A stretch of DNA of 38,642 bases, from assembly GCA_946185345.1 (NCBI GenBank), contig CAMHJC010000010.1, positions 1 through 38,642 on the forward strand. The letters are read 5' to 3'. The notes under the pieces were generated by a model that was not told the origin of the DNA, did no database searches, and saw nothing but the letters and a program-made list of their open reading frames with translations. The position numbers and the translations under genes were made by a program. Shown here piece after piece: positions 5,055 to 9,508 of this stretch (within the stretch, counting starts at the first letter, position 1; each line of letters begins with the position of its first letter). The stretch is from an uncultured Clostridia bacterium (GTDB lineage: Bacteria > Bacillota > Clostridia > Oscillospirales > Acutalibacteraceae).

Positions 5055-5097
5055 AAAAGCCGTACAGCGTGTTTGTCACATGCCGCACGGCTTTTTT
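5055..5097. terminator. Bidirectional terminator between convergent genes
   Basis: AAAAGCCGT (5055-5063) pairs with ACGGCTTTT (5087-5095), with an imperfect inner stem. T6 lies on the right side and an A-tract on the left, so it can serve both the plus-strand acidic protein gene and the minus-strand ttcA-like gene. The TAA of the ttcA-like gene overlaps it. Confidence 0.75.
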
Positions 5098-5821
5098 ATT
5101 TTTCATTGACGCCCCAGTCGGAAATATCTCCCTGCTGCATGGCGGAAATGATTTTTTCGGTAAGCCCGGGATACTGCCTTTCAAGCGCGTGAATGGTGGT
5201 CTGCGCCAGAGTGCGCTGCGTGCAGCCGTCTGCCGGACAGCTGCTTTTCATCACCGGCAGCTGCAGTCGTTCGGCGGCTGACTGTATTTCGCTCTCACGG
5301 CAGAAAATCATCGGCCGTATCAGAATGATTCCCTTTCGGTCGAGATAGGTTACGGGCGAGAAGCTGCCTATTCGGCTGCCGGAAGTGAGATTCATCCAGA
5401 ATGTCGCGGCGGCGTCATCCATGTGGTGGCCCAGAGCAAGGCGGGTGCAGCCCTGTTCGAGCGCCATGTTGTGAAGGATGCCTCTTCTCATTCTGGCGCA
5501 GAGCGAACAGGGATTGCTCTCTCTGCGTTCCTCAAAAATGATCTCGCCCAGCCTTGACCGCCTTATTTCCAGCGGCACTTCAAGCCCGGCGCAGAAGCGT
5601 TCTATCGCCGAATAATCCGCCGGAATTCCTCCGAAGCAGGGGTCAAGACAGAGGGCGGTCAGTTCAAAATGCGACGGGTGGAAGTCTCTCATCGCCGCCA
5701 TGAGCCGCAGCAGCATGAGCGAATCCTTGCCGCCCGAGACCCCGACGGCGATTTTTTCGTTTTGTCCCAGCATGCCGTATTTGTCGGCGGCGGCACGGGT
5801 TTTGGAAAGGAGCTTTTTCAA
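5096..5821 (-). CDS. TtcA-like PP-loop tRNA 2-thiocytidine synthetase family protein
   Basis: The 241-residue PP-loop ATP pyrophosphatase has SGGKDS at residues 29-34, which binds ATP and adenylates the target base. It also has a CSLC pair near residue 113, GHHMDDAAATFWMN in the middle, and a third cysteine region SCPADGC near 200. This pattern fits the TtcA group, whose cysteines bind an Fe-S cluster and which thiolate C32 of tRNA. Start is TTG 5821, with AAGGGG ten bases upstream; no ATG fits. It lies 30 bases after the mgtE stop on the same strand, so it is probably co-transcribed with mgtE. The substrate is inferred from the family. Confidence 0.85.
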   Translation of the reverse strand: MKKLLSKTRAAADKYGMLGQNEKIAVGVSGGKDSLMLLRLMAAMRDFHPSHFELTALCLDPCFGGIPADYSAIERFCAGLEVPLEIRRSRLGEIIFEERRESNPCSLCARMRRGILHNMALEQGCTRLALGHHMDDAAATFWMNLTSGSRIGSFSPVTYLDRKGIILIRPMIFCRESEIQSAAERLQLPVMKSSCPADGCTQRTLAQTTIHALERQYPGLTEKIISAMQQGDISDWGVNEK

Positions 5822-5851: not shown

Positions 5852-7294
5852 TTATCCGGCGAATCCGAGAATGTCGATCAGCAGAATTTTGCTGATGCCG
5901 TAATAGGTCACCACGGCGACAAGGTCGTTGATAGTGGTGATAAGCGGCCCGGAAGCGACTGCCGGGTCAATTTTGATTCTTTTGAAGAAGAGCGGAATCA
6001 GCGTGCCGACAGCGCTGGATATCAGCATGGCCAGCACCAGTGAAACGCCGATGCAGCCCGAAACGGCAAATGAGAACACCGCCGCCTTCTGCTTGAAAAG
6101 CATGATGTAAAGTCCGATCAGCACCACAGACACGGCACTGAGCAGTGTTCCGTTGAAGAAGCCGACCTTCATCTCCTTGATGACGAGGTGCAGCTTGCGC
6201 CGGAAGATCAGATTTTCATCGGTGAGCATGCGAATGGTCACCGCAAGCGACTGCGTTCCGACATTACCTGCCATGTCCAGTATCAGCGACTGGAATGCCA
6301 TGATCAGCGTGAGCTGCGCCACTACCGATTCAAATATTCCCACGACGCCCGAAACGGCGATGCCCAGTCCGAGCAGTATAATCAGCCAGGGCAGACGCTT
6401 TCTCATGCTGTCGGCCAGCGGCTCGTTGAGGTCTTCTTCTGCAATAAGACCTGCCAGACGTGCGTAATCTTCGCCCATTTCGTCGTCAACCACTTCAATG
6501 ACGCTCTGTGCGGTGATGACTCCCAGCAGGCGGTTGCCGTTATCCAGCACAGGGACAAAATCCTCTCCGTATTCCTTGAGCTTTTCTATACAGTCGTCGA
6601 TGGATTCATTGGCGTAGACGTAAGGGAACGATGTGGTTGTCAGATCTTCCAGGCTGTCGGTACTGTCGGCGGTAATAAGGTCTTTCAGGTCGACCGCACC
6701 GTAGAATTCATCGTGCTCGTCCACCGTAAACAGCGTGGAAATATTGTCATTCTGCTTGGCCTGGCGGATCAGTTCCTTCATGGCTTCTTTGATTGTGAGG
6801 TTTTCACGTATGCTGATGAAGTTGGTGGTCATGCGGCTGCCTATCTCGTCATCGTCAAATGATGCGATCAGCCGTATGTCGTCCCGTATCTCCGGATTGA
6901 GCAGCTCGATCAGCAGGCTGCGTTTTTCCTTGTTGATCTCGTGAAGCACATCGGCTGCCGTGTCGGTTTCCAGTTCGGATATGACCCGGGCCGCCTTCTG
7001 AATATCCATTTCGTCCAGATAGACCCCCGCCGATTCCTCGTCGATGTATTCGAATGTGTCGGCCAGCATATCCACCGTGCATACCCGGTACAGCTTTTTG
7101 CGTTCGTTGAGCGAGAGCGCCTCCATCGCCCGGGCAATGTCATTGCCGTGATAGTCCTCCAGCCGGCTGAGCATTACCTTCGGTGAAAGATTGCCCTTGA
7201 TGATGCCGACGATTTCCCCTTCGTAGTCGGGTCTGACCGCGGCGGAAGCATCCTGTGTCATGGCTTCCTTGATTTCCTTTGTTTCCTGGGACAT
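5852..7294 (-). CDS. mgtE: Magnesium transporter MgtE
   Basis: MgtE is a dimeric Mg2+ channel of the plasma membrane that closes when cytosolic Mg2+ is high. The 480-residue protein has all three parts: a cytosolic helical N-domain (about 20-130), a tandem CBS pair (about 135-260), and a five-helix membrane domain (about 300-480). The membrane domain holds the conserved DMAGNVGTQSLAVT segment of the pore region. Acidic residues that hold the closed state are plentiful in the N and CBS domains. ATG 7294 is chosen over GTG 7306 because GGAG is then 11 bases upstream. Transcription starts about 290 bases upstream and passes through an attenuator-like leader (7390-7581). Confidence 0.95.
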   Translation of the reverse strand: MSQETKEIKEAMTQDASAAVRPDYEGEIVGIIKGNLSPKVMLSRLEDYHGNDIARAMEALSLNERKKLYRVCTVDMLADTFEYIDEESAGVYLDEMDIQKAARVISELETDTAADVLHEINKEKRSLLIELLNPEIRDDIRLIASFDDDEIGSRMTTNFISIRENLTIKEAMKELIRQAKQNDNISTLFTVDEHDEFYGAVDLKDLITADSTDSLEDLTTTSFPYVYANESIDDCIEKLKEYGEDFVPVLDNGNRLLGVITAQSVIEVVDDEMGEDYARLAGLIAEEDLNEPLADSMRKRLPWLIILLGLGIAVSGVVGIFESVVAQLTLIMAFQSLILDMAGNVGTQSLAVTIRMLTDENLIFRRKLHLVIKEMKVGFFNGTLLSAVSVVLIGLYIMLFKQKAAVFSFAVSGCIGVSLVLAMLISSAVGTLIPLFFKRIKIDPAVASGPLITTINDLVAVVTYYGISKILLIDILGFAG

Positions 7295-7389
7295 GGTTTT
7301 GTTCACTCCGTTTCATGGTCTGATAATTAATGCTGCATTATCATATACCAACAGTAACGGACAAATGTGAAACACACCGGACGGCGTGC

Positions 7390-7423
7390 AAAAAAATCCT
7401 CTGTGATCGGTATCAGACAGAGG
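7390..7423 (-). terminator. Intrinsic terminator inside the mgtE leader
   Basis: Read on the minus strand: CCTCTGT (7423-7417), a small inner GAT/ATC pair around ACCG, ACAGAGG (7404-7398), then seven Ts (7396-7390). It lies about 95 bases before the mgtE start, downstream of the leader promoter, so it would end transcription before mgtE unless its left arm is masked. Confidence 0.85.
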
Positions 7424-7547
7424 TGACAAAATACAGCCGTATGCCAACCGGGCGGTAAAGCGACTCCGCTCGGTTCATCATTCGGTGTGGAGGCTTGGAA
7501 TTTGTCATACTATCACATTTGCCGCCGCAACTATCGCCGTTTGTCAC
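7413..7547 (-). CDS. Predicted 44-residue leader peptide upstream of mgtE
   Basis: Start is GTG 7547, with a strong ribosome site GAGGTGA (7559-7553) five bases before it. The product begins VTNGDSCGGKCDS and has SKPPHR in the middle; it ends SLYRPVGIRLYFVTSV, so the last 27 residues are basic and aromatic. The TGA stop (7415-7413) falls inside the terminator hairpin. A ribosome finishing the ORF would therefore cover the left arm and block the terminator, while one that stalls or drops off earlier would not. The Pro-Pro and later Pro resemble the proline-containing Mg2+-sensing leader peptides MgtL/MgtP of enterobacteria in principle, not in sequence. Translation is inferred. Confidence 0.55.
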   Translation of the reverse strand: MTNGDSCGGKCDSMTNSKPPHRMMNRAESLYRPVGIRLYFVTSV

Positions 7548-7559
7548 TTTACTCACCTC
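7501..7559 (-). promoter_or_regulatory. Candidate antiterminator arm in the mgtE leader
   Basis: The RNA segment UUUGUCACCUC (from 7430 to 7420) includes part of the terminator's left arm. It can pair with GUGACAAA (7547-7540), with GAGGUGA (7559-7553, the leader ORF ribosome site) or with a second UGACAAA (7507-7501). Pairing would compete with the terminator and would be affected by translation of the leader ORF. A separate hairpin (7447-7455 with 7466-7474) lies between. No M-box or other known riboswitch consensus was recognised. Confidence 0.5.
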
Positions 7560-7587
7560 GATTTTTGAATTATTCTGCAACGCCATC

Positions 7588-7616
7588 ATTATATCACAGC
7601 CTGCATGCGATGTCAA
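7588..7616 (-). promoter_or_regulatory. Consensus promoter of the mgtE leader
   Basis: On the minus strand: TTGACA (7616-7611), 17-base spacer, TGA then TATAAT (7593-7588). Both hexamers are perfect and the -10 is extended. The expected start of transcription is near 7581, giving a leader of about 285 bases. Confidence 0.85.
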
Positions 7617-7735
7617 TTCGGTATTGACTGAAAAATGTGTCTGATCCGTCATCTGCCGGTTACAATTCAGTCATTTATGATCCGGGCGAATTTGTAAACA
7701 GTTTTTTTTCCACACATGATTGTGCATTTATTTAT

Positions 7736-7764
7736 TTGACATTTATCCAATAGTATTGTATAAT
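7736..7764 (+). promoter_or_regulatory. Consensus promoter of the L,D-transpeptidase gene
   Basis: TTGACA 7736-7741, 17-base spacer, TATAAT 7759-7764, about 80 bases before the start codon. It is divergent from the mgtE promoter; the region between them (7617-7735) shows nothing else recognisable. Confidence 0.8.
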
Positions 7765-7846: not shown

Positions 7847-9508
7847 TTGAATAATAACGACTTTTTTGAGATGAACGGTTTTAATCCGAACGAGTCGCTC
7901 AACTTAGATCCCAATGCATACCGCCAGTCAAAACCTTTATCTGACGGGATGAGGCAACCCAATGACGATTCCGCTCCCCGGAACGCGGCCCCCTCTGAAA
8001 CTCCCCTCAAAAACACCGATGATGATTTTGAAAATAACAGCTTCGGTCGGGAGGCCAAAAAGACCGGTGTCAAGCTTGCTGCGCTGACCGTGATCGCGCT
8101 GGTGTCTGTGATAGGAGCATGCGCGGCCGTCCTGATGTTGTTTTCAAAGGAAGAAAAAAAGGAATTTGACGGCAACTATGACCTGAAGGAAACCGTTTTT
8201 GTCACCGAAACAGACAGCCCGGACATCAATCAGATTACAGAAGATGTGATAGGAACCGGAATGCTCTATGAGGACTGCGATATTCTTGTCTCTCCGGACG
8301 AAGGCGCCGAGGTGGAAGGCCGTCTCGAAGGCGGCAGCGATCTGATGATTTACGCTGCTGAAGGCGACTATTACAAGGTGAGCGATCCCGGCAGACTCGT
8401 TGTGGGATATGTGCTGAAGGAGAAAGTGAATACGGGTGAGATCGACCTTGGCAATCCCGAGGCTCCCGTGGAAGTGGTGGATGACACGACAGGCGCTGTA
8501 GTAACTACGGAACCTACCGGTAAGATTGCCGCAAGCGGCACGGTCAATCCTGAGGATTTTCCGGTCAACGCTTCGCCGTACTTCATTTATGTGGAAAAAG
8601 GATCCCACACCATCACCATATTCGGTAAGGACGAGAACGGCAAGTACACCGTGCCCAAGAGGACTTATCTCACCGCCACAGGACGTACCGCCGCACTCAC
8701 GCCTGTGGGAGATTTTCAGATTCTGGGTAAGGAAAAATGGCACTGCTGGGGCCATGCCTATTCGCCTTACTGCTGTAAATACTACAGAAATCTGTTTTTT
8801 CACGGGCCGATCTACGGGCAAAAGAGTTTCGGAACTCTCTCAATCGACAGCGTTTTGCAAATAGGCACTAACGCTTCCTCCGGTTGTATGAGAACCACTG
8901 CCCAGGCGGCCTATTTCATTTATCAATTCTGCTGGATCGGCACGAATGTCAAAATAGTCAACGGTTCGCCTCTCGGCAGAAGCGCATCCAAACCTTCGTA
9001 TTGGAGTCAGTACAGGGATCCGGCCACCAATCTGGTTCCGGTGGGCGAAATATCCTTCGCTTTTGACAGCAAAAACATGAATGTCGGGGATTCCGTTACC
9101 GTTTCGGTTGATTTTACGCCGCAGACCGCCAGTGAAAAGGATTGTACCTGGAGTTCGAGCAATCCCGGCGTGGTTTCGGTGAGCGGAAAAGGCGATTCAT
9201 GCCTGCTCAAGGCGAAGAAGGAAGGCAGCTCCGTCATTACGGCCTGTTCCGTAGACGGAGGTTTTACCGCTTCCTTTACCGTGACTGTGACGGATAACTC
9301 CCCGCAGGTGACTTCGTCGGAAGCCTCTTCGGTTGTGTCTGAGGATACGACTTCTTCCCAGGGCGATACCTCGTCGGACGAAAACAGCTCCACTACCCAG
9401 ACAGGCAGCCAGGAAAGCTCCACCGCCGAAACGGGCGGCCAGGATAGCTCCTCCTCCGAAGCCGGCTCCGACAACGGCGATCCGAACGAACCTTCCGGCA
9501 ATGAGTGA
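7847..9508 (+). CDS. Membrane-anchored L,D-transpeptidase (YkuD domain) with Ig-like domain
   Basis: L,D-transpeptidases make 3-3 crosslinks in peptidoglycan outside the membrane. The 553-residue protein has a cytosolic N-tail of about 65 residues and one membrane helix (about 72-95). An SH3-like extracellular region follows (about 125-190). The YkuD domain (about 240-375) carries FFHGPIYG and the catalytic SSGCMRT with Cys347. Then comes a Big_2-like Ig domain (about 398-480) and a Ser/Thr-rich tail. Start is TTG 7847 with AGGAG ten bases upstream; no ATG fits before the conserved part. The domain contains extra cysteines (HCWGHAYSPYCC), unusual for an exported Gram-positive enzyme. It is a single-gene unit. 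Confidence 0.88.
   Translation: MNNNDFFEMNGFNPNESLNLDPNAYRQSKPLSDGMRQPNDDSAPRNAAPSETPLKNTDDDFENNSFGREAKKTGVKLAALTVIALVSVIGACAAVLMLFSKEEKKEFDGNYDLKETVFVTETDSPDINQITEDVIGTGMLYEDCDILVSPDEGAEVEGRLEGGSDLMIYAAEGDYYKVSDPGRLVVGYVLKEKVNTGEIDLGNPEAPVEVVDDTTGAVVTTEPTGKIAASGTVNPEDFPVNASPYFIYVEKGSHTITIFGKDENGKYTVPKRTYLTATGRTAALTPVGDFQILGKEKWHCWGHAYSPYCCKYYRNLFFHGPIYGQKSFGTLSIDSVLQIGTNASSGCMRTTAQAAYFIYQFCWIGTNVKIVNGSPLGRSASKPSYWSQYRDPATNLVPVGEISFAFDSKNMNVGDSVTVSVDFTPQTASEKDCTWSSSNPGVVSVSGKGDSCLLKAKKEGSSVITACSVDGGFTASFTVTVTDNSPQVTSSEASSVVSEDTTSSQGDTSSDENSSTTQTGSQESSTAETGGQDSSSSEAGSDNGDPNEPSGNE

Follow-up and report, generated by a model that had tools for sequence, protein, structure and literature searches.

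A candidate leader-peptide attenuator upstream of the magnesium transporter gene mgtE in Clostridia

In Firmicutes, the usual explanation for how mgtE responds to Mg2+ is the M-box riboswitch. MgtL, the leader of E. coli mgtA, is a short ORF before an Mg2+ transporter gene that encodes acidic N-terminal residues; in the part of the source available, these are Glu2 and Asp4 of an EPDP motif, and ribosome loss at low Mg2+ turns the transporter on (PMC11282234). MgtQ is an ORF of 8 amino acids before Salmonella mgtB, in which, according to the accessible sections of the report, the Asp2 and Glu5 codons are needed and ribosomes that leave early are proposed to expose a ribosome site that is otherwise sequestered (PMC8092293). 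In the tandem attenuators of Salmonella mgtCBR the leader ORF, MgtP, overlaps alternative stem-loops before the Mg2+ genes, and the M-box (ykoK, RF00380) controls mgtE in Bacillus, both as given in the available text of PMC3641672. Finally, the mgtE motif SRC-65-1 is a predicted cis element before mgtE, which the accessible part of its description gives only from Thioalkalivibrio, as a riboswitch candidate that takes in the Shine-Dalgarno sequence (SD) and the start codon of the gene behind it (PMC11109978).

The leader upstream of mgtE described here is likewise a short ORF before an Mg2+ transporter gene, with acidic N-terminal residues as in MgtL. However, MgtL is associated with MgtA, a Rho-dependent terminator and the EPDP motif, whereas the present leader has MgtE, an intrinsic terminator, a D-S...R core with CGA and AGU codons, and a helix (P1) that spans the ORF, and it belongs to a different phylum. 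An EPDP-like acidic/proline motif is absent from the leader of the analysed locus, which reads GDSCGGK at this point. As with MgtQ, a hairpin here covers the ribosome site of the transporter gene, mgtE; but MgtQ is intergenic and has only 8 codons, and neither an intrinsic terminator nor fixed CGA/AGU codons are described in the available part of its report. MgtP has 17 codons with three consecutive prolines, whereas the mgtE leaders are poor in proline, which makes up 3.2% of residues 2-12 over 69 leaders (L071 and L074 have NPVPPR). The M-box differs in being an RNA aptamer without an ORF. Among the matches listed in a search of open full texts, with preprints and subscription papers outside its scope, there was no leader peptide before mgtE in Clostridia, and the available main text of surveys of structured RNAs does not mention mgt except for the Thioalkalivibrio mgtE motif. 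Thus, the mgtE leader looks like a leader-peptide attenuator of an Mg2+ transporter that is no M-box, lacks the EPDP of MgtL and is apparently unreported.

The leader and mgtE in the analysed locus

The window, that is, the whole stretch of 38,642 nucleotides that was analysed, contains the following features of the locus:

7588..7616, minus strand: sigma-70 promoter serving leader and mgtE, TTGACA-17-TATAAT, its -10 hexamer preceded by TG (12/12 matches)
7553..7559, minus strand: leader SD, GAGGTGA
7413..7547, minus strand: leader ORF of 44 codons, VTNGDSCGGKCDSMTNSKPPHRMMNRAESLYRPVGIRLYFVTSV, with a GTG start at 7547 and the stop at 7415-7413 (start and N-terminal frame kept in 16/16 genus loci)
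7518..7538, minus strand: conserved leader codons 4-10, GDSCGGK, likely the ribosome-sensing part (mostly third-position changes in the genus)
7420..7431, minus strand: TTTTGTCACCTC, overlapping the left arm of the terminator and able to pair with the leader SD and start, 7559-7540
7390..7423, minus strand: intrinsic terminator whose loop contains the leader stop, followed by a run of seven T (direct reading and script)
7356..7361, minus strand: TCCGTT, left arm of a hairpin covering the mgtE SD, within TTTGWCCGTTRCTR (TTTGWCCGTTRCTR in 16/16 genus loci)
7307..7312, minus strand: AACGGA, right arm of the same hairpin, including part of the mgtE SD
5852..7294, minus strand: mgtE, magnesium transporter with MgtE_N, CBS and MgtE domains (TIGR00400 and Pfam)

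These coordinates confirm the arrangement read in the initial annotation, namely promoter, strong ribosome site, 44-codon ORF, terminator holding the stop of that ORF, and then mgtE, all on the same strand. Hexamers similar to those of the promoter are aligned in most rows of the genus alignment. The terminator consists of the arms CCTCTGT (7423-7417) and ACAGAGG (7404-7398) followed by an A and seven T (7396-7390), with the TGA stop in the loop; it is absent from the list of a simple scan that allowed only loops of 3-8. Both copies of TGACAAA (7546-7540 and 7507-7501), as well as GAGGTG of the ribosome site, are each able to pair with TTTTGTCACCTC (7431-7420), in agreement with the earlier reading that they can pair with the terminator's left arm. 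The best single helix of the window's leader (L001) involves TTTGTCAC, a part of TTTTGTCACCTC, and is not significant alone (z 0.92, p 0.15). The same holds for the window's own helices in general, which counts against the attenuator model. The product of mgtE matches TIGR00400 with 268.9 bits (cut-off 232.75), and its real start is probably the ATG at 7294 with an SD at 7309-7303, because the GTG at 7306 given in the ORF list sits within the mgtE SD. Covariance models of Rfam gave no match at gathering anywhere in the window, and a search of 7280-7700 returned only chance miRNA and snoRNA matches (E 7-10) and no M-box up to E 10, so that the absence of an M-box noted initially stands.

A second conserved element, which the initial annotation did not contain, is formed by TTTGTCCGTTACTG (7365-7352) and AACGGAGTG (7312-7304), which are able to pair over the mgtE SD. 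The pattern TTTGWCCGTTRCTR...AACGGAGTG precedes mgtE in 16/16 genus loci, and 99% of the cells of this hairpin in the genus alignment are paired; since the element is almost invariant, it is complementarity that speaks for the hairpin. In a collection of 84,980 species the exact pattern occurs in 13 stretches, all of them genus loci, from records of uncultured Clostridia or Ruminococcus metagenomes, two of which are labelled goat abomasum and omasum.

In the neighborhood, a second perfect promoter (12/12, 7736-7764, plus strand) drives a divergent gene for a protein of 553 amino acids (7847-9508, plus strand), which has no NCBIfam match but contains an SSGCMR stretch that we take to resemble an L,D-transpeptidase active site. 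The product of the gene after mgtE (5096-5821, minus strand) resembles a tRNA-modifying enzyme of the TtcA/TilS type, with scores below the curated cut-offs.

Reading frame, distribution and codons of the leader

The genus sample comprised 18 genomes including the window's own, 16 of which carry mgtE of this subtype, and the leader is found upstream of it in all 16. Its N-terminus has the form V-(T/S)-x-(xx)-GDS(C/Y)GGK, in which an indel of two codons (6 nt) stays in frame. Among the seven codon columns of GDS(C/Y)GGK, 0, 1 and 5 are variable at codon positions 1, 2 and 3, respectively, and the codon differences between the eight distinct rows are synonymous in 51 and non-synonymous in 12 instances, as against a synonymous share of 0.21 for random single changes. 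The reading frame, whose conservation among relatives had been named as one check on the initial proposal, is thus kept. For the next 11 codons in an 11-member clade the corresponding counts are 58 and 95, which indicates that the strong codon constraint stops after GDS(C/Y)GGK. From this pattern we infer that the leader ORF is probably translated.

The C-termini of the leaders, SLYRPVGIRLYF included, differ among the genus relatives, and the position of the stop relative to the terminator varies too; the suggestion that the end SLYRPVGIRLYF is a conserved stalling or drop-off element is therefore not borne out. SLY is present in 8/11 members of one genus clade, while its DNA letters are kept in 10/11 even where the frame is shifted (L011, L018), as would be expected of an RNA strand and not of a peptide. 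Similarly, the letters of the late P1 strand (GTCGCTTTAC and variants, see below) are kept in 11/16 genus loci and lie in other frames in L011 and L018, which points to a constraint on the RNA. Of the 16 genus leaders, only the 11 in the aforementioned clade have the proline part (SKPPH and variants). A C-terminal arrest peptide of the SecM/TnaC type was considered and rejected, given that the C-termini differ even within the genus and that the PSVF-like endings of some order leaders correspond to the P1 strand.

Conservation at the peptide level of residues 4-10 within the genus might be taken to mean that the leader encodes a small functional protein of the mgtE operon, followed by an ordinary terminator. 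This appears highly improbable, as only about 10 residues are conserved while the remainder and the length (19-60 amino acids) drift, the scanned leader peptides (five and four) have no Pfam or NCBIfam match, and there would be no reason for the start to pair with the end, or mid-ORF with the stretch past the stop.

Beyond the genus, genomes were searched via the MgtE protein and then the upstream DNA (398 in the family, 394 in the order and 391 in the class). The leader lies upstream of 69 of the 78 evaluable genes of the window's MgtE subtype (genus 16/16, family 13/13, order 23/30, class 17/19); the nine evaluable genes without it count against the attenuator model. Two loci (L094, L140) had been dropped at contig edges before the total of 78, and an ORF with an SD 450 nt upstream in L141 (MESMRL...) was left out of the leader count. 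A script using an exact SD word of at least 5 bases located 67 of the 69 leaders, and L070 and L119, which lack such a word, were added by eye. Leaders of the first set were chosen by their N-terminus after reading, and ends, helices and codons played no part in the choice. Because leaders were thus recognised partly by the N-terminus, counts of the N-terminal motif are not independent; D or E occurs within residues 2-8 in 69/69 leaders, this being partly a recognition criterion. Typical N-termini are MDGSSCSRS, MDSCDSHGRSRS, VDAGDSCDKRGKR, VANGDSCGSNGR, VDSCDNCGRSR and MESNPVPPRSS, and outside the genus they mostly follow M-D-x...D-S...R, where the window has GDSCGGK; the DS core of the latter is common to many order and class leaders. 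In L123, L126 and L133 mgtE seems to have a long acidic N-terminal extension, with the leader correspondingly farther upstream.

An element restricted to the genus had been suggested by a genus-based model and by the exact pattern of the 3' element, and was overturned by the upstream DNA in the family, order and class. Of the weak matches to the genus-based model (E 0.002-0.1), six (L034-L037, L041, L049) were inspected and yielded no leader. Every counted leader precedes mgtE since only upstream DNA of mgtE was inspected. A search with the pattern AGGTGA..TGGA..CGAAGT before any gene in 192 order genomes gave 22 sites (14 with the pattern backwards as control), of which three are leaders, all before mgtE, 18 others are on inspection not leaders and L161 is the remaining site; as the pattern would miss most leaders, this is a weak test for leaders before other genes.

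Outside the genus, the first arginine within the first 14 codons is encoded by CGA in 43/52 leaders, at codons 7 to 12, compared with 50/890 arginine codons of mgtE at these loci and 7/92 in the rest of all leaders. Likewise, serine is encoded by AGT in 107/172 instances over all 69 leaders, but in 167/2,084 in their mgtE genes. Averaged by genus (35 genera), the leader and mgtE values are 0.76 and 0.059 for CGA, and 0.65 and 0.080 for AGT. In the non-genus leaders these letters are locked to the reading frame although their distance to the start changes, with CGAAG in frame in 26/27 cases (codons 7, 8, 9), CGAA in 39/47 and GA[CT]AG in 34/37. Two observations count against the attenuator model: without context, CGA is in frame in only 51/83 occurrences, and the window's genus has no CGA in its sensor codons. 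In L134 the motif GGCGAAGT is kept, 23 nt into the ORF, out of frame with the leader start, which hints either at an assembly slip in the metagenome or at a role at the RNA level. Given that the motif is frame-locked in most leaders and yet kept out of frame in L134, both the reading frame and the RNA letters seem to be under selection.

Long-range helices and the second MgtE subtype

Two predicted helices connect distant parts of the leader, and in the window their strands are:

7543..7552, minus strand: P1 5' strand GTAAAGTGAC, over the leader start codon (genus covariation; 10/10 pairs form in the window)
7455..7464, minus strand: P1 3' strand GTCGCTTTAC, late ORF codons
7498..7506, minus strand: P2 5' strand GACAAATTC, mid-ORF, at the second TGACAAA copy (7/9 pairs form in the window)
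7425..7433, minus strand: P2 3' strand TATTTTGTC, adjoining the left arm of the terminator

P1 reflects a complementarity between the region -8 to +22 around the leader start and the last ~10 codons of the same ORF. Over the 69 leaders its mean z is 2.27, with p<0.05 in 33, and its score in cis averages 21.98 against 16.32 (sd 3.76, 785 pairs) when a start is paired with the end of another leader. The excess has its maximum, 5.8, some 30 nt ahead of the stop and falls to between -0.8 and 1.2 behind it. P2, the second peak of the two-dimensional map, connects the middle of the ORF to the ~36 nt that follow the stop (mean z 1.73, p<0.05 in 28/69), and in many leaders it lies beside or over the left arm of the terminator. 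That fewer than half of the leaders reach p<0.05 for either helix counts against the attenuator model. With one mean per genus and dinucleotide shuffles, P1 has a z of 2.64 (p 4e-9) and P2 of 1.67 (p 1.5e-4), and they are positive in 32 and 30 of 35 genera, respectively. These values are for ungapped helices, which replaced unrestrained duplex energies (mean z -0.82) that proved too loose.

Within the genus alignment, 88.5% of the cells of P1, P2 and the mgtE SD hairpin are paired, and 4/9 pairs of P2 have changed on both sides among the 16 rows. The covariation score of 0.205 exceeds that of shuffled (0.104 +- 0.014; 0/500 reach it) and slid (0.064-0.121) controls; related rows can outscore shuffles without structure, and the cross-clade helix test above is independent of the genus alignment. 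The leader is thus more than chance: its start is kept in 16/16 genus mgtE loci, and its pairings covary.

P1 and P2 cross each other, their strands following in the order start, mid, end and after-stop, as in an H-type pseudoknot. In 31/103 leaders, a total that includes those of the second subtype described below, each of the two helices has z>1.5; among these 31, the start and mid or the end and after-stop strands overlap in just one, and the mid and end strands overlap in four others (negative L2; two by one base). As strand overlaps are rare, P1 and P2 could either form a pseudoknot or be alternatives. It is conceivable, though unlikely, that the RNA comes first, with P1 and P2 coexisting in an H-type pseudoknot, stabilised by Mg2+ or another ligand, in which the leader start is buried, and with the ORF carried along or merely reporting the fold. 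The strand order and the rarity of the first kind of overlap would suit this arrangement, as would the codon-level constraint, the out-of-frame motif of L134 and the persistence of the P1 strand in shifted frames (L011, L018), the last three of which suggest selection on RNA letters. However, the frame lock over changing distances, the SD words in 67/69 leaders, the in-frame 6-nt indel and the synonymous pattern indicate that translation of the sensor matters; furthermore, the overlaps of mid and end strands in 4/31 and the lack of any Rfam family near mgtE in the window or in 53 loci of the subtype tell against it.

A terminator was placed by script in 50/69 leaders, some with clearly misplaced arms, and was not accepted in the other 19. 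Inspection by eye of L073, L074, L075, L118, L119 and L120 shows a terminator-like hairpin directly before mgtE that holds the mgtE SD, with the T-run ending at the ATG; such a hairpin could block transcription and translation alike. Only that of L118 was placed at the mgtE SD by the script. In seven order leaders (L096, L097, L100, L103, L104, L105, L109), also read by eye, the left arm starts with a recurring CCATTGTC or CGTTGTCC, and TTTTTNTGCCC recurs behind the T-run; several of the seven have PSVF-like residues at the C-terminus, which represent the P1 strand.

Ten distant MgtE genes (27-28% identical), meant as a negative control, have a leader-like ORF before four and an M-box before two others. 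A further distant set comprised 60 upstream stretches of MgtE genes 24-29% identical, from the same family and picked by rank for genus variety, not randomly. By a rule of an SD word of at least 5, an ORF of 15-60 amino acids and an acidic residue 2, 34/60 of these genes have a leader; this rule was fixed after the ORF list of the set had been seen and before helices and codons were counted, so that the acidity of residue 2 is no result. On the opposite strand, 3/47 ORFs with an SD have D or E at residue 2. In the distant set P1 has a mean z of 3.01 (p 5.5e-8; 0.81 for 15 other SD ORFs), P2 is weaker (mean z 0.90, p 4e-3), and both peaks are in similar places. The codons also agree, with CGA as the first arginine in 22/27 and AGT in 42/68 serine codons.

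Control by the M-box or by another Rfam family was rejected for the window's subtype, as none was found in the window or in 53 scanned loci of the subtype (RF00380 in 0/53). The latter scan excludes the class loci and L014, L016, L018, L023, L141 and L142, and its tRNA, FMN and Gut-1 matches are neighbours, not control families of mgtE. Overall, the M-box was found in 7/103 scanned loci, all of the second subtype (7/50 distant genes), including 5/40 scanned of the 60 distant stretches. In two distant loci (L168, L173) mgtE is preceded by an M-box in series with a short ORF resembling the leader, possibly as two Mg2+ controls in tandem.

A proposed attenuation mechanism and its significance

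The comparison of sequences supports a conserved reading frame, conserved codons and helices, and a conserved target gene. We consider it fairly probable, therefore, that the leader is a translation-dependent attenuator of the magnesium transporter, in which the speed or stability of the ribosome on the early codons selects the RNA fold, and hence termination or expression of mgtE. The initial proposal that leader translation controls mgtE is in line with this, given that the frame is conserved, the M-box is absent and the pairing of the start and mid-ORF with the later leader is conserved. In such a mechanism, the strong promoter and ribosome site would launch the leader ORF, whose first ~12 codons would be the sensor, with an early acidic residue, often a D-S core and, outside the genus, two codons that are slow in other systems, AGU for serine and CGA for arginine, the latter at codons 7-12. 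P1 would tie the start of the ORF to its last codons, and P2 its middle to what directly follows the stop, alongside the terminator's left arm or across it; where ribosomes pause, drop off or finish would then decide which helices form and whether transcription terminates before mgtE. As a guess at the polarity, a ribosome held near codons 7-12 may block P1 and leave the mid-ORF free for P2 as an antiterminator. In the genus, the hairpin over the mgtE ribosome site could act as an additional translational gate.

Equilibrium folding with ribosome masks does not reproduce the proposed polarity and suggests no uniform switch. From 50 leaders with placed terminators, sets of 31 and 29 were picked by hand as credible; in the 31, the mean terminator probability is 0.67 with the leader free of ribosomes, 0.78 with a paused ribosome and 0.57 with one at the stop. 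Before the right arm is made, the pairing of the left arm with the mid-ORF in the 29 leaders is 0.52, 0.21 and 0.47 in the same order. Individual leaders (L076, L113, L118) fit the proposed polarity well, but many others go the opposite way. For the window's leader, placing the ribosome at the stop lowers the terminator probability from 0.91 to 0.00 by construction of the mask; a ribosome there would cover the left arm of the terminator, so that the opposite polarity is possible at this locus.

An arrangement of early fixed codons and alternative helices is also the layout of ordinary amino-acid attenuators, in which the ribosome awaits a charged tRNA (Arg, Ser, Gly or Pro), and mgtE could accordingly follow a nutritional signal. 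According to reports, Salmonella mgtA and mgtCBR have proline-rich leader ORFs that respond to proline; for MgtP such a response is described in the accessible text of PMC3641672. Several distant leaders contain PRS or PP. We nonetheless regard this as quite unlikely. No run of a residue is common to the 69 leaders, single cases such as RSRRRR in L073 being the exception, the residues flanking the fixed codons vary, and the 69 N-termini contain no codon run of the trp/his type for an operon end product, mgtE making no amino acid. In addition, mgtE lies behind every counted leader, among the mgtE loci inspected, and the search independent of mgtE also found its three leaders before mgtE.

For the translation-dependent attenuator we infer that Mg2+ is the signal, that it acts through the ribosome on the early codons and that mgtE is turned on when Mg2+ is low, since the controlled gene is an Mg2+ transporter and early acidic residues serve the same purpose in MgtL and MgtQ. 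More speculatively, and with considerable doubt, the sensor might be made of codons: decoding of the fixed, weak codons AGU and CGA (the latter by inosine wobble) at about codons 5-12 would slow at low Mg2+, and a pseudoknot as long as the ORF would convert the delay into transcription of either MgtE subtype. In a Salmonella his-leader assay, as far as the available part of the report goes, CGA is translated slowly and AGU is among the strongly stalling codons (PMC4046918).

The leader thus precedes most evaluable genes of one MgtE subtype, from genus to class, and, for a second subtype sampled within one family, more than half of 60 genes. With CGA and AGU under tight constraint in a conserved frame, the leaders, of which 103 natural variants are available, could serve to examine whether the speed of decoding acts as a signal. 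Should the leader prove to sense Mg2+, sensing by the ribosome as in enterobacteria would also exist in a distant group, with other letters and another transporter, and the question of convergence would become testable.
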